From: Phycisphaera sp.
GTDB taxonomy: Bacteria; Planctomycetota; Phycisphaerae; Phycisphaerales; Zrk34
DNA: 64,000 nt
Assembly (NCBI GenBank): GCA_016125285.1
Contig: WGMA01000020.1
Coordinates: 1-64,000, forward strand
Direction of reading: 5' to 3'
Both the position numbers and the translations under genes were made by a program. The notes below the pieces were generated by a model, which saw only the letters and a program-made list of their open reading frames with translations, had not been told where the DNA came from and made no database searches. This document shows, piece by piece, positions 34,765 to 46,025 of this stretch (within the stretch, counting starts at the first letter, position 1; the number at the start of each line of letters is the position of its first letter).

Positions 34765-34793
34765 TTGAGACGCTCGGCGGCGGTGTGTAGAAT
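34765..34793 (+). promoter_or_regulatory. Native tRNA-Cys promoter, now at the left end of the element
   Basis: TTGAGA (34765-34770) and TAGAAT (34788-34793), spacer 17. Transcription would start near 34800, just before the tRNA-Cys 5' fragment at 34809. Before integration this promoter would have driven the complete tRNA gene, now at 45841. It currently reads into the mobile element. Confidence 0.65.
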
Positions 34794-34806: not shown

Positions 34807-34830
34807 CCGGCCGCGTAGCCAAGTGGCCCA
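34807..34830 (+). repeat. attL core
   Basis: Starts CCGGCCGCGTAGCCAAGTGG and ends CCCA; identical to 45839-45862. It covers tRNA-Cys nucleotides 1-22. After this point the sequence departs from the tRNA, so this copy cannot make a tRNA. Confidence 0.85.
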
Positions 34831-35023
34831 TTCTGCCGGGTCTCCTAACAAACAGCATCCCAAACAATTACGGCCCTCGCAAGTTGGCCGCGCAGCGCAT
34901 GCGCAGCGCGCAGCCAACCCCGACCCTGACTTTGACACCCTCGTGAGTGCGTGGCCAACGCTATCAGCATCGCTGCGCGCTCGGATCGCGGACATGGTCC
35001 GCACGGAGATGAACCGGGCATAA
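34811..35023 (+). pseudogene. Detached 3' end of the integrase gene (intC)
   Basis: The frame that crosses the attL core continues as HSAGSPNKQHPKQLRPSQVG and ends WPTLSASLRARIADMVRTEM then NRA and a stop at 35023. Motifs like LVxAWPTLPExxRxxIxxMV are common at the C-termini of tyrosine integrases of planctomycetes and other high-GC bacteria. The frame through the core (codons CGG CCG CGT AGC CAA GTG GCC) is the same as in the integrase at the right end, so a circularised element encodes one protein of about 536 residues. Alone it has only a GTG at 34823 as possible start and is probably not translated. Confidence 0.8.
34889..34910 (+). repeat. Candidate arm-type integrase site, left
   Basis: 22 bases containing the palindrome GCGCATGCGC, identical to 45646-45667. 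It lies 58 bases inside the attL core. One copy in each arm of the att region is the pattern of integrase arm-binding sites. Confidence 0.6.
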
Positions 35024-35090
35024 TGCCCCATGAAAAAACGCCGGAAGCGTGTCATTCGACCGAGACGCGACCGACGTTGGAGTAAGACTC

Positions 35091-36236
35091 ATGAGCAGTA
35101 TAGCACGCGGATGTTCCCTCGTAACGGCGTACATGGAAATGGAATCTGGACGAAAGAAAAATCCAACGAACGCCGACTACAAGCGACGCTGTCACAAGAC
35201 GGCGTGTTCGGCCTGCGGGCTGTACGATTGCCGCACGTGGGTCGGCCGTCATCATTGGAAGGTTGCGGCGCTGCACGCCAGAACGAGCACGTACACGCTG
35301 ACGTGGCCGAAGCTCCCGACGTGTAAAGCGTCCGTGGAGTCCGTACTGTTGTTCTTCGCAGCCGTGGAGCGTCTCCGGCGACGGCTGGCGTCGGACTATA
35401 TGTGGCTCCGCAACGTGATCGGTTTCGTCCTCAAGACCGAGATCAACTTCCTTCCGAGATCACGAGGAGGGCAGTTCCAACTCCACGGTCACCTGTTGAT
35501 CGTGTTCGCCACGCCACAATCGCAGCGGAGTTTCCCGATCACCTTGGCAGCATTGTGGAAGGCCCCGAAGGGGCAAACGATCGAGTCAGACGATGACCGT
35601 GAGAACAGCAGTCTGGCCGGGTTCCTCTACTACTGCGCCAAGCACCCGGTGCAGGTGTCCGACGAGGAAGCCGACGAGAAGCAGCAAAACGATTGGCGTA
35701 TGAAGTTGCAGCGGTGCGTTCTCAATGATGTCGAACGCGAACTCGGCCGACCAGCCATCGCGAAGCATGTCGAGGGCATCTTGAAGGGACACAAGTTTCG
35801 GGAGATGGAAGACCGCGCGCACTACGAGCAGTTGCCACCCGATGAGCAGGCCACGAGTCCGTCACGGAAGGCCGCGCCGCTGCCGGAAGGTGTAAACCGT
35901 GTGTTGGTGAAACCCCGTTGTCCACAATGTCGCGGCGTTGGGCGGAAGATCATCAAGTGGTGCAAGGATCGACACGGTGAACAGCGCTACCGCTGTAAGA
36001 AATGCGCCGTGACGTTCCTTCATCGGCATCGTTCACCCCACGCTGAAAAGCTCCTGAAAAACAGCACCATCCCGCGTAAGGAAGCCAACGCGATGCGCAA
36101 ATTGTTCGAGCAAGGGACGAGCGTTGCGGCGATCGCGAGGCACTTCAACCGAGCATGGATCACTGTCAAGAAGGTCATCGAATACTTCCGCGAACAGTCC
36201 CGGCAGTATAACTACCCCGGTGCTAGCGCGGCCTGA
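35091..36236 (+). CDS. HUH-endonuclease Rep-like protein with zinc knuckles and HTH
   Basis: 381 residues from ATG 35091 (GGAG upstream). HUH landmarks in order: motif 1 TYTLTWPK (~67-74), the acidic strand VLKTEINF, the HUH motif as LHGHLLIVF (His132, His134), and motif 3 LAGFLYYCAKHP with Tyr180/Tyr181 and Lys184 where the nicking Tyr is expected. A Cys cluster (CHKTACSACGLYDC, 34-47) precedes it and a zinc ribbon (CPQC at 277-280, CKKC at 302-305) follows. A helix-turn-helix (SVAAIARHFNRAWITVKKVI) ends it. Likely nicks the element's origin for rolling-circle replication. In the integrated state it lies downstream of the host tRNA promoter. Confidence 0.72.
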   Translation: MSSIARGCSLVTAYMEMESGRKKNPTNADYKRRCHKTACSACGLYDCRTWVGRHHWKVAALHARTSTYTLTWPKLPTCKASVESVLLFFAAVERLRRRLASDYMWLRNVIGFVLKTEINFLPRSRGGQFQLHGHLLIVFATPQSQRSFPITLAALWKAPKGQTIESDDDRENSSLAGFLYYCAKHPVQVSDEEADEKQQNDWRMKLQRCVLNDVERELGRPAIAKHVEGILKGHKFREMEDRAHYEQLPPDEQATSPSRKAAPLPEGVNRVLVKPRCPQCRGVGRKIIKWCKDRHGEQRYRCKKCAVTFLHRHRSPHAEKLLKNSTIPRKEANAMRKLFEQGTSVAAIARHFNRAWITVKKVIEYFREQSRQYNYPGASAA

Positions 36237-36287
36237 CCGGGACTGACTGTGTGTCAAACGAGACTGACGGGAAGCATGGAGGAGCAC

Positions 36288-36656
36288 ATGAGTAACGACA
36301 CGACACAGCAGCCGGTATCACTCCCTGAGTACGTAGCGCACGCGATAGCGATCCACCCTTGCGAACATCGTGACATCGAACGCGTGGTACGTGACACGAT
36401 CAAAGTGATGGCGTTACTCGCAATGGAGGGCAAGGCAGTTGAGCTTCCCGGTTACGGAACCATCGAGGTCGGTACGCGGCCAAACCGGAAGGTCAAGAAG
36501 AACATGGATGGCCCTGACGGCGAGACGTATGACACCGGTCCACGAGCATGTCTCCGGTTGAAGCCGACGGAACGGTTCCAGAAGAAACTGAGCGTGATGC
36601 ACCGAGTCCGGCAAGGGCTCATTGGATCAGGGAGGAACAACGATGCCAAAGCATGA
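36288..36656 (+). CDS. HU/IHF-family DNA-binding protein 1
   Basis: 122 residues from ATG 36288 behind GGAGG. Residues ~20-60 form the helical dimer part (HRDIERVVRDTIKVMALLAM). Then come the characteristic strand LPGYGTIEVGTRPNRK, an arm, and ACLRLKPTERFQKKL, matching the HU/IHF layout of GxGxF, RxxRxxxNP and xFKPGKxLK. The RNP arm tip is altered. Its 3' end overlaps the start of the second HU-like gene by 14 bases, so the two are translated together and may form a heterodimer that bends the element's att or origin DNA. Confidence 0.72.
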   Translation: MSNDTTQQPVSLPEYVAHAIAIHPCEHRDIERVVRDTIKVMALLAMEGKAVELPGYGTIEVGTRPNRKVKKNMDGPDGETYDTGPRACLRLKPTERFQKKLSVMHRVRQGLIGSGRNNDAKA

Positions 36657-37023
36657 CTACGAGCCGATCGACTTGGTCAGCCTGCTCATCCAACACCTCG
36701 GCCGTGAGGGCTACGGTCCACGCGAAGTCCGACGTGTGCTCGAAGCCGTCGGCAACATCGTCGTGGACATCCTGCAACAGGGACACGCACTTCGTTGGCC
36801 GGGTGTCTGCACGGTGCGGACGAAGCTGCGAGGCTTCCGCGTCTTCAAGTCAAACCTGCCTCACCTTCGTGGCCGGGTGTGTTACTCGCGATCCAAGGCG
36901 AAACTCGTGGTCAAGCCGGAGGGCCATCTGAAACGGTACTTGGGCCGTGGCTTGATCGACAGTCTTAAGCCGGGCGTGCGCCGGGAATGTCCTGAACTGG
37001 ACGGGACTTCTCAGGTCGGATGA
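36643..37023 (+). CDS. HU/IHF-family DNA-binding protein 2
   Basis: 126 residues from ATG 36643 (GGAGG seven bases upstream). It shows the same plan as its neighbour: helices VEAVGNIVVDILQQGHAL-like, then WPGVCTVRTKLRGFRVFKSN and AKLVVKPEGHLKRYLGRG, corresponding to the HU beta arm and FKPGKxL segment. It is more diverged than protein 1 and very basic. Paired HU-like genes recall IHF alpha and beta, an architectural factor needed by many tyrosine integrases. Confidence 0.65.
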   Translation: MPKHDYEPIDLVSLLIQHLGREGYGPREVRRVLEAVGNIVVDILQQGHALRWPGVCTVRTKLRGFRVFKSNLPHLRGRVCYSRSKAKLVVKPEGHLKRYLGRGLIDSLKPGVRRECPELDGTSQVG

Positions 37024-37265
37024 CGAGCTTGTTCAGCAGGCTCCGTTAAGAACCTACGCGAATCAGCGGTGTTTGCGTCGAACGTCCGCAGTAACACGCG
37101 ACCTGATCCCGCAGGCATGAGGTACGAACGATGACACAGTGTCAATACATCCAATCGGTCAGTCCATCGGCGAGGTGGTATAATCATTCCCACGCGGTGC
37201 GACGGGGCACAGCCGGACTTGTAACGGGGACGCATCCGTCGGGTACTCCATATTGGGAAGAAGCC
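37024..37265 (+). promoter_or_regulatory. Intergenic region with extended -10 promoter
   Basis: TGGTATAAT at 37176-37184 is an extended -10 box (TGn plus perfect TATAAT). CGGTCA at 37156-37161 is a weak -35 at 17 bases. Transcription would begin near 37191, with a ~75-base leader before the gene at 37266. Nothing else is recognised here. Confidence 0.55.
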
Positions 37266-37934
37266 ATGACCAACTACCGCGTACTGTTCTTGACCCTTCT
37301 TATCGCTGCGGCGTGTTGTGCCGACGACGTGGCGATCGAGAAGACCGTGGCGAAGGACGCCAAGGTCGCATACGACGCGGAAGTGACGAAAGCCACGCAG
37401 GAATATGAACGGAGTGTCGAGTTGGCGGCGAAGAAGCGAGACGCCGCCGTGGCGCAGGCGCAACGTGGATACCTGCTGCAACTGAAACGGGCGATCGAAG
37501 CCGAGACAAAGCAAGGGCACCTCGACCGGGCGCTCGCCGTCCGCGCCGAGATCGAACGGATCGAGAAGGGTGATGAACGCGAGTCCACTACCGCTGCACC
37601 GTCGCCGACCCCGTCACAGGCAGTCAAACCCGTCGTCGATGAGACGCAGCAACAGCCCCCGAAACTGGTCGGTGGGACTTACCCGGTTGAATGGAGCAAC
37701 GGCGTCACGTGGAAGTTCCTTATCAAGGGCGACAAGATGCTGTGGGGCACCGGGGCGGCGCAGAAGTGGTATGACCTGCAAGTCGTCAAGGGGCGGGTCA
37801 TTCGCGTGGACCTGCCGGAAGGGCCGATCGAATGGGCGGAGGATAAACAAGGGAATCTGCACGTGCGGTACGACGCCGCGAGCGGATTACATGAGGGCAA
37901 AGTATCCGCTGCTAATCGCCCGAAGGGAGACTGA
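37266..37934 (+). CDS. Exported coiled-coil protein of unknown function
   Basis: 222 residues from ATG 37266 behind GGAAGAAG. Signal peptide MTNYRVLFLTLLIAAACC; the AACC end could also be a lipobox-like Cys. Residues 25-105 are a charged helix likely to form a coiled coil (EYERSVELAAKKRDAAVAQA). A Thr/Pro/Ser linker follows (TTAAPSPTPSQAV), then a beta domain of ~80 residues (YPVEWSNGVTWKFLIKGD, DLPEGPIEWAED). The plan resembles planctomycete exported proteins with a helical stalk and small beta domain. Only three bases separate it from the next gene. Confidence 0.7.
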   Translation: MTNYRVLFLTLLIAAACCADDVAIEKTVAKDAKVAYDAEVTKATQEYERSVELAAKKRDAAVAQAQRGYLLQLKRAIEAETKQGHLDRALAVRAEIERIEKGDERESTTAAPSPTPSQAVKPVVDETQQQPPKLVGGTYPVEWSNGVTWKFLIKGDKMLWGTGAAQKWYDLQVVKGRVIRVDLPEGPIEWAEDKQGNLHVRYDAASGLHEGKVSAANRPKGD

Positions 37935-37936
37935 CC

Positions 37937-38509
37937 ATGTATGAAAAACTGATGGAAAAGGCTGGCCCCGAAGGGTTGACCAAGGCGGCGATCAGACGAG
38001 TCGATCATTTGGTGGATCGCGCGGACCTGCGTAGAGGGGTTGTCTTTGTGCGGGCGCTCGATTTGGATGCTACCCCCGACGCAAGCGCCAAGGTCACCGA
38101 GTTGGTTAAGCAAGCGGGCCGGTGTCCATTTCGTCTCGGCGTGACCTATCGACAGGAGGGTGCGCAGGGCACTCGACACGAAGTGATACACGTGTTTCGC
38201 CGGTTCAATTACGCCGACGCCAAGACCATGATCTGGCAGATGACCAAGGGAAACGGGACACGTTGGATGATCCGTTTCGGGTTGTACGACGGGGTCACGA
38301 TCGTCTCGAACGATGACCTCGATTATGAGGAACTGGATCGCAAGCCCGATTTCGACTACCTGCCGGAGGTCTTGCCGCAATGGTTGGCCTTGGCTCGCGG
38401 AGATGATCCGCGCGGAACGGAGTGCATCAGCATCGAGTACCTGCCGAGTCATCCAAGCGACGCTCGCGGCTGGATGCTGGCGGTCGCGCAACAGGCCAAC
38501 CATAATTGA
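37937..38509 (+). CDS. Hypothetical protein of the element, 190 aa
   Basis: Not recognised. GGGAG precedes ATG 37937, and the gene follows the previous stop by three bases, so the two form an operon. No signal or membrane segment; predicted mixed alpha/beta (RLGVTYRQEGAQG, HEVIHVFRRFNYADAKTMIW, RWMIRFGLYDGVTIVSND). GC and codon use match other element genes. It could be an element-specific defence or immunity protein, but nothing in the sequence says so. Confidence 0.6.
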   Translation: MYEKLMEKAGPEGLTKAAIRRVDHLVDRADLRRGVVFVRALDLDATPDASAKVTELVKQAGRCPFRLGVTYRQEGAQGTRHEVIHVFRRFNYADAKTMIWQMTKGNGTRWMIRFGLYDGVTIVSNDDLDYEELDRKPDFDYLPEVLPQWLALARGDDPRGTECISIEYLPSHPSDARGWMLAVAQQANHN

Positions 38510-38873
38510 CCCGGAACACCGGGGCATTGACAATGAGTCACTGAACGACAGCTACGACACCCACGCGAAGGAGCAGCACGACAAGATTGACACGATGACA
38601 ACTTAACGAACTCAACGAGTTCGGGTTTCTGAGCCGCACAGGGAAAATTGGCATTACTCACGCGCGAAGGAATGGAACCCCGGCTCGCTCCGTATGGAGC
38701 GGGTTGCGGGTGTTCGGTTTCGCGCACGGCATGCCAATGCCGCCCTGTGGACCGGGTTTCTCGTTAGCCCGCTCCATTTGTATTGGCGTCCCTGTGATCG
38801 GCCTTCAACAGTATCGAATATCGTTCGCCGCGTTGGTGACGATGAGACGAGTACCTCAGAAGGAGATCACGTA
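38510..38873 (+). ncRNA. Gene-free stretch with a long nested hairpin (candidate structured RNA)
   Basis: Between 38637 and 38749 four arms pair in nested order: CACAGGG/CCCTGTG, TTGGCAT/ATGCCAA, GCGCGAA/TTCGCGC and CTCGCTCC/GGAGCGGG (one G-U), closed by GTAT. A GAACCCCG/CGGGTGTTC pairing lies between the last two. The sequence CGGGTTTCT flanks the structure on both sides (38622 and 38753). A smaller hairpin CGAACTC/GAGTTCG lies at 38607-38623. No convincing reading frame crosses it. It could be a structured RNA, a folded single-strand DNA site or a small non-autonomous insertion. Confidence 0.5.
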
Positions 38874-39389
38874 ATGACCGATCAACATCCCGACACTCAG
38901 CGTAAATGGTATGACAGCAAGGCGATTGTAATCTTGCTCCTGATCCTGTTCTTCCCCGTGGGTTTGTATGCCCTGTGGAAGGGGCAGAATTTTTCTACGG
39001 TTGTGAAGGGAATACTCACCGGGGTGATATGTTTAGCGGTACTCGGCTCAATGGGGGACCGTCCTGAGCGGCGTCAATCAACTAGCGGGACGGGAAGTGC
39101 GCCGACTAGCAGTCAACCAAGAACTCAGACGGCAAGTGAACCCGAATCGAAACAGAAGTCGGGATCACTTGGTGTTACAAAAGCCGGGTACGAGGCCATC
39201 CAGAACGGCATGACGCGCGAACAGGTCATTGCCATATTGGGCGAAAGCGGCGAAGAACTCAGCCGTGCAGGCGATGGTCAGTATGAGACCGCCATCTACA
39301 CGTGGAAGGCAGGGTTCTTTGGCGCGAACATGAATGTTACCTTTCAAGGTGATCGAGTCATGGCCAAGGCGCAGTTCGGTCTAAAGTAA
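38874..39389 (+). CDS. Membrane-anchored protein with BamE/BLIP-like domain
   Basis: 171 residues from ATG 38874 behind AAGGAGAT. N-terminal membrane part AIVILLLILFFPVGLYALW and VKGILTGVICLAVLG. A Ser/Thr/Gln-rich linker (STSGTGSAPTSSQPRTQTAS) leads to a C-terminal domain: VTKAGYEAIQNGMTREQVIA then ILGESGEE ... AIYTWK ... MNVTFQGDRVMAKAQFGL. This is the helix-helix-beta layout of SmpA/BamE and beta-lactamase-inhibitor-like domains, in which YxxIxxGMTxxQVxxILG is the key signature. Function in the element unknown; likely a surface or envelope protein. Confidence 0.72.
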   Translation: MTDQHPDTQRKWYDSKAIVILLLILFFPVGLYALWKGQNFSTVVKGILTGVICLAVLGSMGDRPERRQSTSGTGSAPTSSQPRTQTASEPESKQKSGSLGVTKAGYEAIQNGMTREQVIAILGESGEELSRAGDGQYETAIYTWKAGFFGANMNVTFQGDRVMAKAQFGLK

Positions 39390-39583
39390 CGATGAAAGTT
39401 GGGCCATGACGATCGTTGATTGATGCGATCTCGGTACAGCCCAAGGGGAAGTTGAACTACTACTACCGCAATAAAACATCTCTGCAAAGCCAGACCGGCG
39501 CAGGCGTCATACTCATCGCTTGTGTTGCCTGATCGGGCCGTGTGCAACTTCACTATGTGATGGCAGACGAAAGGACTTGCCAC

Positions 39584-40039
39584 ATGAAACCTGTCTATTC
39601 GATGAAAGGCGTTGGGGGGTTGCTTGAAGTCTATGAAGACCGAGTGAATATCACGCCAAAGGGCGTGTTGGGGTTCCTTAATAAGGGACTGAAAGGGACG
39701 AAGTCGATTCCGTTTTTTTCGATCACCGGCGTGCAGTTTAAGAAGTCAGGGATGACGAGTGGGTACATCCAGTTCACCATGCCCGGCGGCAATGAAAGCA
39801 GAGGTGGAGTGCTCGCAGCTACACGAGATGAGAACACATTCATGTTTGCGAGACAGAACGAGTTGGCAATCGAGATCAAGGATTACATTGAGAATCGCAT
39901 CCAAGAACTGCATCGACCACAAGCCTCATCACCCGCCTTTAGCATCACGGATGAATTACAAAAACTCGTAGACATGAAGACAAACGGCATTTTATCCGAT
40001 GACGAGTTTGAGGCGGCAAAACGTCGAATCATCGGATAG
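39584..40039 (+). CDS. DUF4429-like protein with C-terminal SHOCT domain
   Basis: 151 residues from ATG 39584 (AAGGAC upstream). The first ~105 residues are a PH-like beta domain (SMKGVGGLLEVYEDRVNITP, IPFFSITGVQFKKSG, YIQFTMPGGNES), as in DUF4429 or bacterial PH proteins. The last 30 residues, ITDELQKLVDMKTNGILSDD then EFEAAKRRIIG, are a textbook SHOCT (short C-terminal) helix pair. SHOCT domains are thought to mediate oligomerisation. Cytoplasmic. Separate transcription unit, no partner evident. Confidence 0.8.
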   Translation: MKPVYSMKGVGGLLEVYEDRVNITPKGVLGFLNKGLKGTKSIPFFSITGVQFKKSGMTSGYIQFTMPGGNESRGGVLAATRDENTFMFARQNELAIEIKDYIENRIQELHRPQASSPAFSITDELQKLVDMKTNGILSDDEFEAAKRRIIG

Positions 40040-40178
40040 GTCGTGCTCATCTATTGGCGTTCAGGCAATCGAGCATCTATGCCGTTTCACGGTGAAGGAA
40101 CTGGATGCGATATGGGGCAGTCGGTGATGGCAGTGCCATGATGACCCGCGCACAGCGCCTCGACAACGGAGGAGCCAA

Positions 40179-42539
40179 ATGCTTAACACGCTTATCGAAG
40201 ATTTCCGCACCGGCAAGGCGCATGGTGTGAAGATCATTGTCATCCCGGACGACGCCGACGGTGTTGAGGCCGTGGAGATCGGCGCTGTGCTATCCGATGC
40301 CATGCCCGACGACCTGCTCATTGGCGTCGAGTCCGGCGACACGCTACCGCACTACTCGCTGGCGGGGGCGCTGCGTAATGCGTATCTGCGACCGAAAGGC
40401 AGGCCGGGTGCGTGGCGAGCAGCGTTCGATAGAGCCAAGGACAAGATCGGTGATCTCGCGCTCGACGGCATGGGCGGCGTGGTCGGAGTTGCCGCGCACC
40501 TGACGCTGGACGCGCTGCCACAGTCGCCGATCAAGTCCGTGCTCAAGTCACCGTACTCCGTCGAAGCGGTGCATGAGGCCATCGGGCAATTACTCAAGGT
40601 CAAGCCGCTCGTGCTATGCATTAAACGGGCGCATATCGACTCGGCTGAGTCGATCCGGTTCGTCATGGAGCACTGCGTGCGCGGGGACAATCTCCGTAAG
40701 GGCGACAACCGGTTTCTGATCGTGCTGTACATTCGACAGCGAGACCTCGATAACGAACTATGGAAGGGTGTACAGGACTTCGTCGCTGATGAGGGACTGA
40801 TCGAGTTTCTTCACTACCGGGCGGACGGCGGTGCGTCGGAGTCGCCCTTGGTCGTCATCCTCCGTGAGGCCGACGACGCGGCGATACGGGTGCTGATGGC
40901 GCTGCGGTCGTACATGTCGGCATACGAGGCGGAGGTTTGCCCACGCACCGTGTTGACCAAGGCCATCGGTTCCGTGTCGCGGCCGCTGCAATGGCTTGAG
41001 GAGAAGGGAGTGGTGCAGCGGATCGGCGACGACGGTGAGTTGTTGGTCCTGCCAGAATCGTATGACTGGACCGACCTGCGCGATGCCGTCGATGATGTGA
41101 TCGACACCGCCGATACAGACGACGAGTATGACGACGAGGACGTAGCGGACTCGCAGCCGGTCGTGGAAGCCGCCCGGTCGATGTTCACAGCCGTGATCGA
41201 AACTGATGGGCGGACGCAGGGCAACTTCAAGCCGCTGCTTGAACTTGCGGTCGAGGGTCGCCTTGCCGCACAGGCGATGGACTTGGCGGGTCGTACCGTT
41301 CAGGCACTTGCCGAGGCACGCGATCACGACGAACTACTTCGCCTGCGACCGCTCCTTCGGCGTGCGTTTCGGCGCATGGACCTGTGGGAGTCCGCAGAAC
41401 GTCAGGATGTGGATGCGATTCAGGCGGGGATGCGGGCGTTCGGCGCGGCTTTCGATGCGTTGGCGTGTGAGCCGTGGGGATTGGTGCAGGCGGAAGTCGC
41501 TGGCATGATCCGTCAGGTCTACGCCGACGCCCGACGGCACCTGCCGTGGGCGATCCTGCAACACCTCGAAGATGTGGCTGATGGTGATTCGGGAAATCTG
41601 TTACTGACCACACGCAGGGGACGTGTGAAACTCGTGTCGTACCAACACAGCGGGTTCCAGACGAAGCGTCGTGGCCTGCGCGGAAAATCCTTGCTGTCGG
41701 ACCCTGACGATGATGGAACGCTATCGGAGTTGTATCCCGTGTCTGGCGGTCACCTCATGTGGGCGTTCTGTTCGGACCAGTCGGTCTACTGCTATCCGAT
41801 CGGATTCATCGACGCGAAAGACCATGATGGGGGGTATTGCCTTCCAGCGCAGGATGTGTCTATCTGTCTCGAACTGCGCCCGCCGGAGGATGTAGTGACG
41901 TATGGGATACCGCCCAAACCGGTAGCGCCGGGCTATGTCGTTCTGCTGAGCGAAACAGGGCAGGCGGCTGTCATTGACAGTACGGCACTTCCCACCTCCC
42001 CTCGTGCGCGGGTCGCCCTCCCCGTTGAACTGCTGTCCTCGCGCGTCGCGCCGCGTTGGTCGGTGTTCGTGCAGGCGGATGAAGACCTGTTTGTCGGCAC
42101 CACCGACAACAAGGTATTACGTGTGCCCGGAACCCTTCTACCGAGCAGGTCAGGGGCACCGGCCGAGCCAATCATTCACCTCGACGGTGACGCCAGATTG
42201 GCCGCAGCGTGCGCACTGCCGCCGTCCAGTGGAGGCAACCCGCAATATCTGTTTGTCGCCACGACGGGTGGATACGGCAAGTCGATCGACGCCCGCGAGT
42301 TCTCCGCCGCATCGTGGGGTGACGTTGGGGTCGTCGCCCAATCCGAGGGGAAGCGATCCGGTTCACTTTGCACGATCGAGCCACTGACACTCTTTGGCGA
42401 CGTGGTACTTGGCACAGCCCAAGGCGAGATCATCCGCATCTTCCGTAGCGATATTCCGCTCCGTAACCGAACAGGTGTCGGCGTGAAACTGATCGACCTG
42501 CTGAAACGCGATCAGGTCGTATGCGGCTGCGCCATGTGA
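40179..42539 (+). CDS. Large element protein: degenerate ATPase-like N-terminus plus GyrA-CTD-like beta-pinwheel
   Basis: 786 residues; GGAGGA before ATG 40179. Residues 15-190 follow a AAA/STAND-like pattern (first strand VKIIVIPDD, Walker B-like LVLCIKRAHIDSAES at 144-158, sensor-like FLIVLYIRQRD), but the P-loop lacks the GK(S/T) and the Walker B Asp is replaced, so ATP hydrolysis is unlikely. Residues ~240-295 look like a winged helix (AIGSVSRPLQWLEEKGVVQR), then an acidic linker. From ~470 on, repeats resemble the gyrase A C-terminal pinwheel: LLLTTRRGRVK with TKRRGLRGKSL (like a GyrA box), YVVLLSETGQAAVI, LFVATTGGYGKSI and GEIIRIFRSDIPLRNRTGVG then VKLIDL. Proposed role: wrapping or bending DNA. 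The similarity is by eye only. Confidence 0.6.
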   Translation: MLNTLIEDFRTGKAHGVKIIVIPDDADGVEAVEIGAVLSDAMPDDLLIGVESGDTLPHYSLAGALRNAYLRPKGRPGAWRAAFDRAKDKIGDLALDGMGGVVGVAAHLTLDALPQSPIKSVLKSPYSVEAVHEAIGQLLKVKPLVLCIKRAHIDSAESIRFVMEHCVRGDNLRKGDNRFLIVLYIRQRDLDNELWKGVQDFVADEGLIEFLHYRADGGASESPLVVILREADDAAIRVLMALRSYMSAYEAEVCPRTVLTKAIGSVSRPLQWLEEKGVVQRIGDDGELLVLPESYDWTDLRDAVDDVIDTADTDDEYDDEDVADSQPVVEAARSMFTAVIETDGRTQGNFKPLLELAVEGRLAAQAMDLAGRTVQALAEARDHDELLRLRPLLRRAFRRMDLWESAERQDVDAIQAGMRAFGAAFDALACEPWGLVQAEVAGMIRQVYADARRHLPWAILQHLEDVADGDSGNLLLTTRRGRVKLVSYQHSGFQTKRRGLRGKSLLSDPDDDGTLSELYPVSGGHLMWAFCSDQSVYCYPIGFIDAKDHDGGYCLPAQDVSICLELRPPEDVVTYGIPPKPVAPGYVVLLSETGQAAVIDSTALPTSPRARVALPVELLSSRVAPRWSVFVQADEDLFVGTTDNKVLRVPGTLLPSRSGAPAEPIIHLDGDARLAAACALPPSSGGNPQYLFVATTGGYGKSIDAREFSAASWGDVGVVAQSEGKRSGSLCTIEPLTLFGDVVLGTAQGEIIRIFRSDIPLRNRTGVGVKLIDLLKRDQVVCGCAM

Positions 42540-42605
42540 TTTGAGTGTGCTCACCCGTTCCGTTGCGCACAGGATCGGGGCCTTTGACAACGAGTCAGTC
42601 GCCAG

Positions 42606-42642
42606 TTGACGGGCAATGTAACGGACCGTACAATAGTACGGT
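42606..42642 (+). promoter_or_regulatory. Promoter and overlapping operator of the serine recombinase gene
   Basis: TTGACG (42606-42611), 17-base spacer, TACAAT (42629-42634). A perfect palindrome ACCGTAC-AATA-GTACGGT (42625-42642) covers the -10 box and the start site and ends at the base before the ATG (42643). There is no Shine-Dalgarno element, so the mRNA is likely leaderless. A protein bound to the palindrome would block transcription; self-repression by the recombinase or control by the ribbon-helix-helix protein is conceivable. Confidence 0.65.
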
Positions 42643-43347
42643 ATGAAGCGAGCCGTCGCATACATCCGAGTCAGCACCTCCGATCAGGCCCTCGACGGCG
42701 TGTCGCTGGATGCGCAGCGGGCAAAGATCGAGGCGTGGGCGCGTGCGAACGACTACGACCTCGTGGAAGCCCATACGGATCGGGGAATCTCCGGCAAGGC
42801 CACGCACAACCGACCCGCCCTTCACGACGCTTTGGCTGCTGCGTGCCGTCAGAAGGCCGTCCTCGTCGTGTATAGCTTGTCCAGATTGGCAAGATCCACC
42901 AAAGACGCCATTGACATCAGCGAGCGCTTGGAACGCTGTGGGGCTGATCTGGTGAGCTTGAGTGAGCAACTGGACACGACCTCGGCGGCCGGGAAGATGC
43001 TGTTTAAGCTCTTGGCCGTGCTTGCCGAGTTTGAGAGTGACACGGTGTCCGAAAGGACGAAGGCAGCGATGGCGTACAAGCGAAGCCGTGACGAGCGGAC
43101 CAGCAGATTTACGCCGTATGGCTACACGCTCGACGTTGACGGGAAGCGGCTTCTTCCCGACCCTGACGAGCAACAGGTGATCCGCAAGATGACGCAGATG
43201 CGGCAGCGGGGGCAGACGTACCGAACGATATGCCGGAACCTCGAAAAGCAAGGGGTCCGCAGCAAGCGGGGCAAGGGGCGGTGGTCGCCGACCGTCGTGC
43301 GCAAGATCATCCAGCGGGCGGACGAGCGGGAACTGGTATCACAATAA
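42643..43347 (+). CDS. Serine recombinase (resolvase family)
   Basis: 234 residues. The catalytic domain begins RAVAYIRVSTSDQALDGVSL, with the nucleophile Ser in VSTSDQ and conserved Arg in SLSRLARS; GKMLFKLLAVLAEFESD is the E-helix region. A short recombinase-type domain follows (TPYGYTLDVDGKRLLPDPDE, then TICRNLEKQGVRSKRGKGRW and PTVVRKII). Shorter than large serine integrases, it is more likely a resolvase or invertase acting on the element, for example to resolve multimers, since a tyrosine integrase is also present. Confidence 0.9.
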   Translation: MKRAVAYIRVSTSDQALDGVSLDAQRAKIEAWARANDYDLVEAHTDRGISGKATHNRPALHDALAAACRQKAVLVVYSLSRLARSTKDAIDISERLERCGADLVSLSEQLDTTSAAGKMLFKLLAVLAEFESDTVSERTKAAMAYKRSRDERTSRFTPYGYTLDVDGKRLLPDPDEQQVIRKMTQMRQRGQTYRTICRNLEKQGVRSKRGKGRWSPTVVRKIIQRADERELVSQ

Positions 43348-43382
43348 AAACCCGCCGCGTCACCAAGGTGACACAGCGGGCA
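43346..43382 (-). terminator. Hairpin with T run on the minus strand
   Basis: CCCGCCGCGTCACC-AA-GGTGACACAGCGGG forms two stacked stems (CCCGC/GCGGG and GTCACC/GGTGAC with a small internal loop). On the minus strand it is followed by TTTTTATT, as in an intrinsic terminator. On the plus strand, where all neighbours lie, no T run follows. It may insulate the element against antisense transcription. Confidence 0.5.
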
Positions 43383-43448
43383 TTCCGGGGGCAAAGTTGG
43401 GCGGGCAGTGTAGCACGCGAGTCCGGGCACAGCGAGGAGCAACGGCAG

Positions 43449-43700
43449 ATGTCGAAGCGTAAAGCGGCAGCGTCCCTCAAGGCAGAGGCAGGCGGTAATG
43501 ATGCGTTGAAGCTGGCAACAGCCGCCGAACTGCGCGCGAAGCTGCGCGAGGGCGACACCAAGACCGAGCGTATCGAACTTCGCCTGTCGAAGCGCGAGAA
43601 GAACCTGCTGGCGACACTCGCCAAGGATCACGGCGTGAGCGTCGCGCAACTCGTTGTCAACCTCGCCACGTTCGCGGTGGACAAACTCAGCAAAGGATAG
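43449..43700 (+). CDS. Ribbon-helix-helix-type small protein
   Basis: 83 residues from ATG 43449 behind GAGGAG. Basic N-terminus (MSKRKAAASLKAEAGG). The C-terminal 45 residues ERIELRLSKREKNLLATLAK then DHGVSVAQLVVNLATFAVDK fit a ribbon-helix-helix fold: a short strand, helix A, turn, helix B. Such proteins act as plasmid copy-number or antitoxin-like repressors. No toxin partner is adjacent. It may control the palindrome at 42625 or the promoter at 43941. Confidence 0.65.
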   Translation: MSKRKAAASLKAEAGGNDALKLATAAELRAKLREGDTKTERIELRLSKREKNLLATLAKDHGVSVAQLVVNLATFAVDKLSKG

Positions 43701-44017
43701 AAGGGGGCGAGACATATGAAGTTGCGAAGGCCGGTGGCTGCAACAGGCAACATGAACTGTCCGCGTGACGTGGGAAGAACTATGGGGCGAGACACTGGCA
43801 AGTGGCAACAGCGTCGCGAACCACGATGTTTACGAGGTTTGACGAATCATAACTTTGTCTCGCGTCACGCGGACAAAGCACCAGCCGTAAAGGTCTGAAA
43901 TACAACGCAATATGCCATGCCTTCGCGACTCGATTCCCTATTGAGTCAGTGTCCGGTGTGACCCTACTATGGCCTGCATGGATTTGACAGAGCCGATCAG
44001 ATAGGAGGCAGGCCGAT
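43701..44017 (+). promoter_or_regulatory. Intergenic region with promoter of the xis-int operon
   Basis: TTGAGT (43941-43946), 18-base spacer, TACTAT (43965-43970) give a promoter ~48 bases before the excisionase-like gene. A hairpin TTTGTC(T)CGCGT/ACGCGGACAAA lies at 43854-43877. No coding sequence is supported here; the small frame from ATG 43716 is not convincing. Confidence 0.55.
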
Positions 44018-44236
44018 ATGAGACGAAAGGATGCAGAAGCGATGGCGACCAGCGTGTTGGGCGACTCGATGCTCAAGTTGAAAGAGGTTGCCGAGTTTTT
44101 GGGGATCGGGCTTTCTACGGCGAAGCGGTGGAAGGCACAGGGTAAGTTCCCGCCGCCAGATTTTCGGGTGAGTGGCATCATCCGCTGGCGTGTCGGCACC
44201 ATTGAGCGATGGATGGAAAAGCAGGAGGGGCGATGA
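44018..44236 (+). CDS. Excisionase/AlpA-like HTH protein
   Basis: 72 residues; a perfect AGGAGG precedes ATG 44018. Residues ~18-45, MLKLKEVAEFLGIGLSTAKR then WKAQGKFPP, are the MerR-like winged helix of AlpA/excisionase proteins, continuing with the family pattern DFRVSGIIRWRVGTIERWME. Presumed to bind the att region and direct the integrase toward excision. First gene of a tight operon: its stop overlaps the next start (ATGA), and the following gene overlaps int by TGATG. Confidence 0.85.
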   Translation: MRRKDAEAMATSVLGDSMLKLKEVAEFLGIGLSTAKRWKAQGKFPPPDFRVSGIIRWRVGTIERWMEKQEGR

Positions 44237-44445
44237 TGGGAAGCGTATGGAGACAACGGCAGGTTCCCGGGTGTCAATCCACTCGCTGGCGGTTCGCCTA
44301 CGTCGATGAGACCGGCAAGCGGCGAACTCAGACGGGGACGCATTCAAGGCGCGAGACTATGGATATGTTGAGAGCGGCGGAAGCAGCAGTCACGCGCACT
44401 GAGTTGGGATCGAGTGGGAAGCCCAATGAGGGCGGGGGTGGTTGA
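44233..44445 (+). CDS. Stand-alone copy of the integrase arm-binding domain
   Basis: 70 residues from ATG 44233 (AGGAGG upstream, 4-base overlap with the excisionase gene). The sequence MGSVWRQRQV ... WRFAYVDETGKRRTQTGTHS then RRETMDMLRAAEA parallels the N-terminus of the integrase that follows (MGSVWKRKTD ... WWFTYINELGKRRTEKGTCS then KEETTELLQAAEA). It therefore looks like a duplicated first domain without catalytic part. It could compete for arm sites and tune the direction of recombination. Ends in a Gly-rich tail whose stop overlaps the int start. Confidence 0.72.
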   Translation: MMGSVWRQRQVPGCQSTRWRFAYVDETGKRRTQTGTHSRRETMDMLRAAEAAVTRTELGSSGKPNEGGGG

Positions 44446-46025
44446 TGGGCAGCGTTTGGAAGCGAAAAACTGACAAGCGACGGTCCGGTGTGCCTTGGTG
44501 GTTCACGTATATCAACGAGTTGGGCAAACGCCGAACTGAAAAGGGAACATGCTCGAAGGAGGAGACTACGGAGTTGTTGCAGGCGGCCGAAGCAAGAGTG
44601 CTGCGACGAAAGCACGGAGTGGTGTCAGCGAAGGATGAGAAGTTCGCAGAGCACGCCAAGAAACCGATCACGCAGCACATTGAAGACTACCTTGCTCACT
44701 GTGAATGTGTGGGGCATAACGATAAGCACCACCACAACGTGACGCAGCAATTGAAGCGAATCGTCAGGGTGACACGGGCAGTGCATTTACGCGATGTGGA
44801 TGCACCCGCAATCGAGCGGTACATGATGAAGATGAAGGAGGCAGGTCGAGCGCCTCGCACAATCAACCACCACCTCAAGGCCGCGAAGGCGTTTTTCAAC
44901 TGGTGCGTTGCAGAGGATCGACTGTCGATCAATCCGATCGCTAGGGTGAAACGACATGAGGAACGGGGAAGACACAATCGTCGGATGCTTCGCCGTGCTG
45001 CTACGCGTGACGAGTTTGAAGCACTCATCCGAGTGCCCGAAGCTGTCAGGCGAGGGCGTCATCACGTATACATCATCGCGTATTGGACAGGGCTGCGGCG
45101 GAACGAACTACGGCAACTTCAATGTCGTGACGTTGACTTAGAGCATCGACAGATCGTCCTTCCCGCGCACGTCGATAAGGCAAGGAAGGAGAATCAAATC
45201 CATCTTCACCCGCAAGCGGTCGAGTCGCTACGCGCGACAATCCTTCCCGATGTGAAACCGGGCGATCGGGTGTTCCGCTCGATCCCTGAGCCAAGTACGT
45301 TCAACAGGGATTGCGAGCGGGCAGGAATCAAGCGAGAGATCGACGGACGGGTGTTTAACTTTCACGCGTTGCGTATGACTGCAAACACGCACCTTGGTCA
45401 GGATGGAGTGAGTGAGGATGACAGGCGTCGATTCCTTCGGCACTCCGACCCGAGGATCACGCGTGACAACTACGACGACACAAAGGTGCGTCTTGACAGT
45501 CTTGGGCACATCATCGACTCGCAGCCGCCCATCGGCGCGAAGACCGATCGCCCCGAGGTGGTTGAACAACGGGCAAAGGCGACGGGTACGGACGACGCAG
45601 TGGCGGTGTCTGACGATGTGTCAAAACCAAAGGATGACGAAACCCCGCGCAGCGCATGCGCAGCGCGGAGAGACGAACGAGCGAGCCACAACGATACTGA
45701 GCGGTACCCCGATGGAGTGGTGGGCCGGATTGAACGAAGCGGGAGCACCGACTACAATCCCGCGTCTGAAACTGAGTTAGACTCGGCGAGACTCACCGAA
45801 ACCAAGTGTGAAGTGAGCACCGGAGAAGACACTGATTCCCGGCCGCGTAGCCAAGTGGCCCAAGGCGACGGTTTGCAAAACCGTTATTCGTGGGTTCGAA
45901 TCCCACCGCGGCCTTTTTTCATTGCGACGCGCACGCCGCGTCGCGAAGCACTTCGCCTCTCTCCCGCTTGTATGAATGCGCGCCCGCGGTCCTTTGACTC
46001 GCCTGGCGTTACCCCGGTGATCTGA
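44445..46025 (+). CDS. int: Tyrosine integrase, C-terminus replaced by integration
   Basis: 526 residues as it stands. Start ATG 44445 in a TGATG overlap; TTG 44442 is possible. Residues 1-60 are the arm-binding domain, ~75-165 the SAM-like core-binding domain (PITQHIEDYLAHCECVG, TINHHLKAAKAFFNWCV), and ~185-350 the catalytic domain: TGLRRNELRQL (Arg218/219), FHALRMTANTHL (His307, Arg310), RHSDPRITRDNYDD (His333, nucleophile Tyr343). All catalytic residues are upstream of the attachment core, which is read as residues ~466-472. From residue 473 the frame runs through the rest of the tRNA-Cys gene and into host DNA. The element-encoded C-terminus lies at 34829-35023. Confidence 0.9.
   Translation: MGSVWKRKTDKRRSGVPWWFTYINELGKRRTEKGTCSKEETTELLQAAEARVLRRKHGVVSAKDEKFAEHAKKPITQHIEDYLAHCECVGHNDKHHHNVTQQLKRIVRVTRAVHLRDVDAPAIERYMMKMKEAGRAPRTINHHLKAAKAFFNWCVAEDRLSINPIARVKRHEERGRHNRRMLRRAATRDEFEALIRVPEAVRRGRHHVYIIAYWTGLRRNELRQLQCRDVDLEHRQIVLPAHVDKARKENQIHLHPQAVESLRATILPDVKPGDRVFRSIPEPSTFNRDCERAGIKREIDGRVFNFHALRMTANTHLGQDGVSEDDRRRFLRHSDPRITRDNYDDTKVRLDSLGHIIDSQPPIGAKTDRPEVVEQRAKATGTDDAVAVSDDVSKPKDDETPRSACAARRDERASHNDTERYPDGVVGRIERSGSTDYNPASETELDSARLTETKCEVSTGEDTDSRPRSQVAQGDGLQNRYSWVRIPPRPFFIATRTPRREALRLSPACMNARPRSFDSPGVTPVI
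45646..45667 (+). repeat. Candidate arm-type integrase site, right
   Basis: Identical over 22 bases to 34889-34910 and in the same orientation (contains GCGCATGCGC). It lies 171 bases before the attR core, inside the int reading frame. Confidence 0.6.
45839..45862 (+). repeat. attR core
   Basis: Identical to 34807-34830. It supplies nucleotides 1-22 of the intact tRNA-Cys, so the element restores the tRNA gene it entered. Confidence 0.85.
45841..45914 (+). tRNA. tRNA-Cys (anticodon GCA)
   Basis: Acceptor arms GGCCGCG (45841-45847) and CGCGGCC (45907-45913) pair fully. The anticodon stem is ACGGT/ACCGT with loop TTGCAAA, anticodon GCA at 45875-45877. The T arm GTGGGTTCGAATCCCAC is perfect. 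The discriminator is U (45914), the identity base for tRNA-Cys. CCA is not encoded. A run of T follows at once and may terminate transcription. The 5' part is element-derived and the native promoter is 11 kb away at 34765. Transcription now probably depends on the xis-int operon or a weak local promoter. Confidence 0.95.

Follow-up and report, generated by a model that had tools for sequence, protein, structure and literature searches.

The tRNA-Cys Locus and the Divided Integrase Gene

The window, the 64,000-nucleotide stretch of contig WGMA01000020.1 analysed here, carries an element of 11,032 bp inserted in tRNA-Cys, and its G+C content is 58.5% against 66% in the flanks. It lies between two identical cores of 24 bp at 34807–34830 (attL, + strand) and 45839–45862 (attR, +); this pair had been proposed in the initial annotation, and no third copy occurs in the window. 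The core consists of the first 22 nt of tRNA-Cys (GCA) together with 2 nt upstream. The complete tRNA-Cys occupies 45841–45914 (+) and, in a genome-wide search, proved to be the sole full copy. Since the right core starts 2 bases before it, insertion took place at the 5′ end of this gene, and the element now supplies the first 22 nt of the functional tRNA, while the displaced 5′ 22 nt remain at the left core.

The integrase gene (int; 44445–45862, +) begins at TTG 44442 or, more likely, at ATG 44445; it encodes a tyrosine integrase (Int) with intact catalytic residues, followed by a long linker that runs into the right core, which the frame enters at CGG 45840. In the left core, the matching phase from 34808 stays open to a stop at 35021–35023, and the other two phases are blocked by stops; the continuation of about 64 residues claimed earlier was thus confirmed, in the only open phase of three. 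This detached 3′ end of int (34808–35023, +) is 71 codons long with the core included, or about 64 beyond it, and ends in the tail DPDFDTLVSAWPTLSASLRARIADMVR, which scores 55.9 bits against a tail model that itself contains this sequence. The joined open reading frame (ORF) comprises 537 codons from TTG or 536 from ATG, in support of the earlier proposal that excision would yield one integrase of about 536 residues. The cores and the frame on both sides likewise support the placement of attP within int, a gene that integration splits. The layout exceeds chance, given a 24-bp identity at a tRNA with a single full copy, the flanking 23-bp repeats, and a conserved tail that recurs in frame in many unrelated elements.

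The catalytic domain lies wholly within 44445–45838, on one side of the split, which bears out the view that the catalytic Tyr343 is left intact. A Pfam scan matched the protein to PF00589 at 2e-16, with no match to PF16795, and the catalytic columns (Arg, Lys, His-x-x-Arg, His, and Tyr) are invariant in alignment A1, the window Int included. A short motif, ATGTxD, is found just past the catalytic Tyr domain in most integrases of alignments A1 and A4.

Other Genes of the Element and the Probable Host Promoter

The gene nearest the tail (35049–36236, +) encodes a protein with a C-terminal zinc ribbon and a helix–turn–helix (HTH), transposase-like or replication-initiator-like by weak matches only; it is followed by an HU/IHF-like DNA-binding protein (36249–36656, +) and a second, weakly matched HU/IHF-like protein (36622–37023, +). 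A 786-aa protein (40179–42539) resembles in its C-terminal part the GyrA beta-propeller domain. Downstream are a serine resolvase/recombinase (42643–43347, +; PF00239), a weakly matched ribbon-helix-helix protein of the Arc-like or NikA-like kind (43401–43700, +), and, immediately 5′ of int, an HTH_17/AlpA-type protein (44018–44236, +) that matches the excisionase family phrog_66 and is a candidate excisionase.

The probable native promoter of tRNA-Cys (TTGAGA-17-TAGAAT, 34765–34793, +) has 10 of 12 matches, a score equalled by none of 500 shuffles; it is now severed from the tRNA and points into the element, where the tail ORF and then the 35049 gene follow. The closest promoter-like sequence 5′ of tRNA-Cys is a weak site within the int linker (TTGAAC-17-TACAAT, 45730–45758, +; equalled by 14 of 500 shuffles), and the element may supply a replacement promoter from inside its own integrase gene. 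In other elements inserted at the 5′ side (G108, G218, and L146), promoter-like sites occur about 40–44 bp ahead of the tRNA, within the int ORF.

Recurrence of the Layout in Other Elements

A second element with the same layout is present on contig C34 of the same genome, with a length of 3,509 bp and a 26-bp core in tRNA-His; it uses the 3′ end of its tRNA, and the window element the 5′ end. Its integrase, very different from that of the window, runs into the core, and the other core continues in phase into ...PELLYLISVWPTLPEEVRRTILRIA. Most integrases of the order read into a site that is a tRNA or resembles one; if the other core is present on the same stretch, the frame carries on there into the same tail. 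Sites in tRNA-Gly are read in differing frames and in both orientations, and the resolved cases still join the tail in frame.

Among 20 element pairs with a tRNA-overlapping core, the conserved tail was found in the integrase's own phase in 16, although several of these tails belong to the tail model and their scores are not independent (L176, L190, L193, L205, and ZRK34 are). One pair (ZRK34, tRNA-His) has the tail in the wrong phase, its left core having a 2-bp deletion by which the frame is lost; two have a different long, open, in-phase C-terminus, and one has no tail. The named examples come from Planctomycetota and Verrucomicrobiota, and one of them, in ZRK34 (CP050848), has 45-bp cores at 5299386 and 5307676 in tRNA-Thr. 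No syntenic empty attB was found in the family members searched.

The split integrases L163 and L180 have a long in-frame C-terminus unrelated to the AWPxLP tail, and further tail families may therefore exist. Tandem elements sharing a middle att in tRNA-Gly were observed at L070–L072 (G016:C18, about 908–953 kb), where int of the first element abuts the tail of the second; the two are out of frame, and no hybrid ORF arises.

Free and Uninterrupted Forms

Uninterrupted homologs in free forms, suggested in the initial annotation as a check, were found in viral contigs (L112 and L120), where intact integrase ORFs contain an internal tRNA fragment. L112 is 9,542 bp long with an 87-bp terminal repeat, and is therefore probably circular; its int frame of 603 codons encloses a 47-bp tRNA-Gly segment, and its C-terminus is tail-like but without a clear match to the tail. 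In L120, the int frame passes through a tRNA-Arg segment and then into the canonical tail, ...AWPSLPDALKAGIVAMVK. L121, L124, and L126 are similar, with other C-termini, and L123 combines a weak tRNA fragment with the tail. These matches were obtained with an alignment of restored integrases as the query; the single window Int gave no match in the viral contigs. Plasmid records yielded weak partial matches only, and phage records searched for L120 yielded none.

The Conserved C-Terminal Tail

The tail model was built from 16 tails and has the consensus DPxLxxLxxAWPxLPxxVRxAIxAMV with an invariant Trp; searches of Pfam and of PDB sequences gave no credible match. Tail matches were found in 148 of 251 genomes and 105 of the 130 genera of the order, nearly all of them in short frames without an integrase, and, at a stricter threshold, in 45 of 294 genomes across the phylum. 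A tRNA fragment lies at most 240 bp upstream of 25 of the 30 best tail matches, eight of which are members of the tail model, compared with 6 of 177 control windows.

The few long tail-bearing frames inspected lack a tyrosine integrase domain in Pfam. They were considered as intact tyrosine integrases, and this was rejected, as they represent GC-rich read-through, and one continues from a serine recombinase. In L264 (4198–6714), a large serine recombinase frame leads through the tRNA-like peptide EWSRGESNPR into the same tail; L265, L267, and L276 have tails similar to that of L264, with the recombinase not in frame. The source genome also holds an orphan tail (L006, 4856–5100; G000:C23) that borders a prophage-like region encoding a T7-like RNA polymerase, and no partner integrase was found for it. 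In one close pair, dN/dS was about 0.57 for the tail against 0.17 for the catalytic part, from which tail evolution appears only weakly constrained in that pair.

Putative Arm-Type Repeats and Predicted Integrase Structure

A 23-bp direct repeat, CCGCGCAGCGCATGCGCAGCGCG, lies 57 bp past the core on the left side (34888–34910, +), and an identical copy lies in the int linker, 194 bp ahead of the right core (45645–45667, +); its 20-bp centre is present only twice in the 6.1-Mb genome. Core-flanking direct repeats above shuffle expectation were detected in 13 of 23 elements, with none significant in the other 10, and inverted arm repeats were sought in the same 23 without any being found. The repeats stand about 100–200 bp from the core on the int side and 32–84 bp on the tail side, ranges that were picked after viewing the data. 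They look like arm-type Int sites, and since direct-repeat arms often accompany the core, the entire attP seems to lie in coding sequence.

The natural Int of L120 was modelled by AlphaFold as a confidently predicted enzyme, a disordered stretch at residues 419–532, and a tail of two helices at 538–568. The core falls within the disordered stretch, which is thus predicted to tether the catalytic domain to the tail.

Proposed Mechanism and Alternative Explanations

The explanation favoured here, which we hold to be very probably correct, is that of an integrative element with attP inside int that exchanges the integrase tail upon integration, with a bias in direction as its inferred consequence. 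The element, of about 11 kb, would hold a complete attP, core and direct-repeat arms together, within the 3′ part of int, and this attP would encode the disordered tether that joins the catalytic domain to the conserved two-helix tail. In the circle, int would be a single ORF of 536 codons giving a long, tailed Int. Recombination of the core with the 5′ end of tRNA-Cys would carry the codons of the tail off to the element's far left end, and the chromosomal int would acquire a new 3′ end encoded by tRNA-Cys and host DNA, its catalytic domain remaining whole. Excision would then restore the long gene. Detachment of the tail with retention of the catalytic residues, and its reversal, follow from the sequences themselves. 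Against the explanation stand the weak constraint on the tail in the one close pair, the lack of a syntenic empty attB in the relatives searched, the 10 elements with no significant arm repeat, and the frame lost in the clear ZRK34 element at tRNA-His.

The same reading may be extended to function. The tailed Int would be the integrating enzyme, and the tail-less Int would keep the capacity to excise, together with the AlpA-like protein whose gene adjoins int; the swap would then bias direction, as reported for Mx8. By analogy with that phage, the long Int would integrate and the short Int would excise or rest, and the integrated Int may be active but altered, as the initial annotation supposed and in agreement with Mx8 reports. 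The tail could instead serve a function other than directionality. More tentatively, and with slightly less in its favour than against it, a phylum-wide class of elements may be envisaged in which integration acts as a covalent-like switch of Int, an uncatalogued C-terminal two-helix tail marking the integrating state in the circle and its loss the excising or resting state, with attP and its arms entirely coding.

The strongest competitor accepts the architecture and denies the split a regulatory meaning: an attP placed in a disordered linker would keep int and attP as one compact module, and both forms of Int would be equal. This is a reasonable possibility, though clearly short of probable. 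It agrees with the position of the core in a linker that is predicted to be disordered and can be read in any frame, with the weaker constraint on the tail than on the catalytic domain seen in one pair, and with the different C-termini of some homologs (L163, L180, and L112). However, the tail is kept across elements with otherwise unrelated DNA and, with few exceptions, is missing from Int in the chromosome; being conserved yet absent there, it must be selected for while the element is circular. The behaviour of the Mx8 Int, moreover, changes on integration. A suicidal integrase of the SSV type, destroyed by integration so that the element is trapped, is improbable: an attP inside the int ORF and a gene split by integration are what it predicts, but all catalytic residues lie on one side in the window Int and its aligned relatives, the family is PF00589 and not PF16795, and an excisionase-like gene adjoins int.

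It is highly improbable that the tail represents a small gene of its own beside attL whose fit to the int frame is accidental. In the chromosome, the tail ORF does stand apart, in many cases with a start codon of its own, but 16 of 17 detected tails are in the phase of Int, and in free contigs int, core, and tail form one ORF. Least credible of all is a coincidence or assembly artefact behind the repeated core and open frame; the source genome is a draft of 90 contigs, yet the same structure occurs in many unrelated assemblies and also in genomes assembled as a single contig, ZRK34 (CP050848) among them.

The data show that the Mx8 kind of arrangement is widespread in a major bacterial phylum, which accounts for the many integrases here that have tRNA-coded residues at their end. 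The long and short forms of Int, paired naturally in many elements, offer material for testing how a tyrosine integrase is made directional, and orphan tails mark the far ends of integrated elements and so aid their mapping.

Comparison with Known Systems

SSV1, pTN3, and pT26-2 resemble the window element in having attP inside int, a tRNA target, and a gene divided on integration. In the suicidal SSV type, however, the cut parts Int(N) from the catalytic Int(C), leaving no complete enzyme, and the integrase belongs to PF16795; in the window, only a C-terminal tail is exchanged in a PF00589 enzyme. The initial annotation called the arrangement SSV-type, which holds for the internal attP and the divided gene; the label itself was rejected, as two defining features fail (a complete enzyme is left, and PF16795 is absent). 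With the catalytic domain left whole, the parallel to SSV holds only in part.

The candidate claim of a first bacterial case was also rejected, since Myxococcus phage Mx8 has its attP inside int with a C-terminal swap; its integrase is altered, not inactivated, by integration (PMC6070905), and the Islander authors state that the Mx8 and SSV integrases extend across attP (PMC4383910). The attP-within-int arrangement of Mx8 and Mx9 is that of Tojo et al. (1996), Magrini et al. (1999), and Julien (2003), as cited in the review PMC6070905 and in PMC4383910. Mx8 and Mx9 agree with the window element in having a bacterial tyrosine integrase, an attP near the 3′ end of the coding region, a new int 3′ end, and a whole catalytic domain, and the core in Mx8 int is tRNA-like, as in the window. 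By inspection, Mx8 Int lacks the AWPxLP tail, and homology to the tail of the window Int was not found; Mx8 is one full-size temperate phage, whereas the conserved tail family here is shared by numerous elements, about 2 to 28 kb in size, in Planctomycetota and Verrucomicrobiota. In mycobacteriophage BPs (PMC4557955), attP also lies in a coding gene and integration changes the protein C-terminus as a switch; in that integration-dependent immunity the altered protein is the repressor, and in the window element it is the integrase.

The literature search returned no paper on a planctomycete version of the attP-in-int arrangement and no further bacterial cases. Mx8 is a closer precedent than SSV, and the arrangement as such is known from it; as far as the searched papers show, what is new is the conserved tail, the evidence from frame and arms, and how widely the arrangement occurs in Planctomycetota and Verrucomicrobiota.
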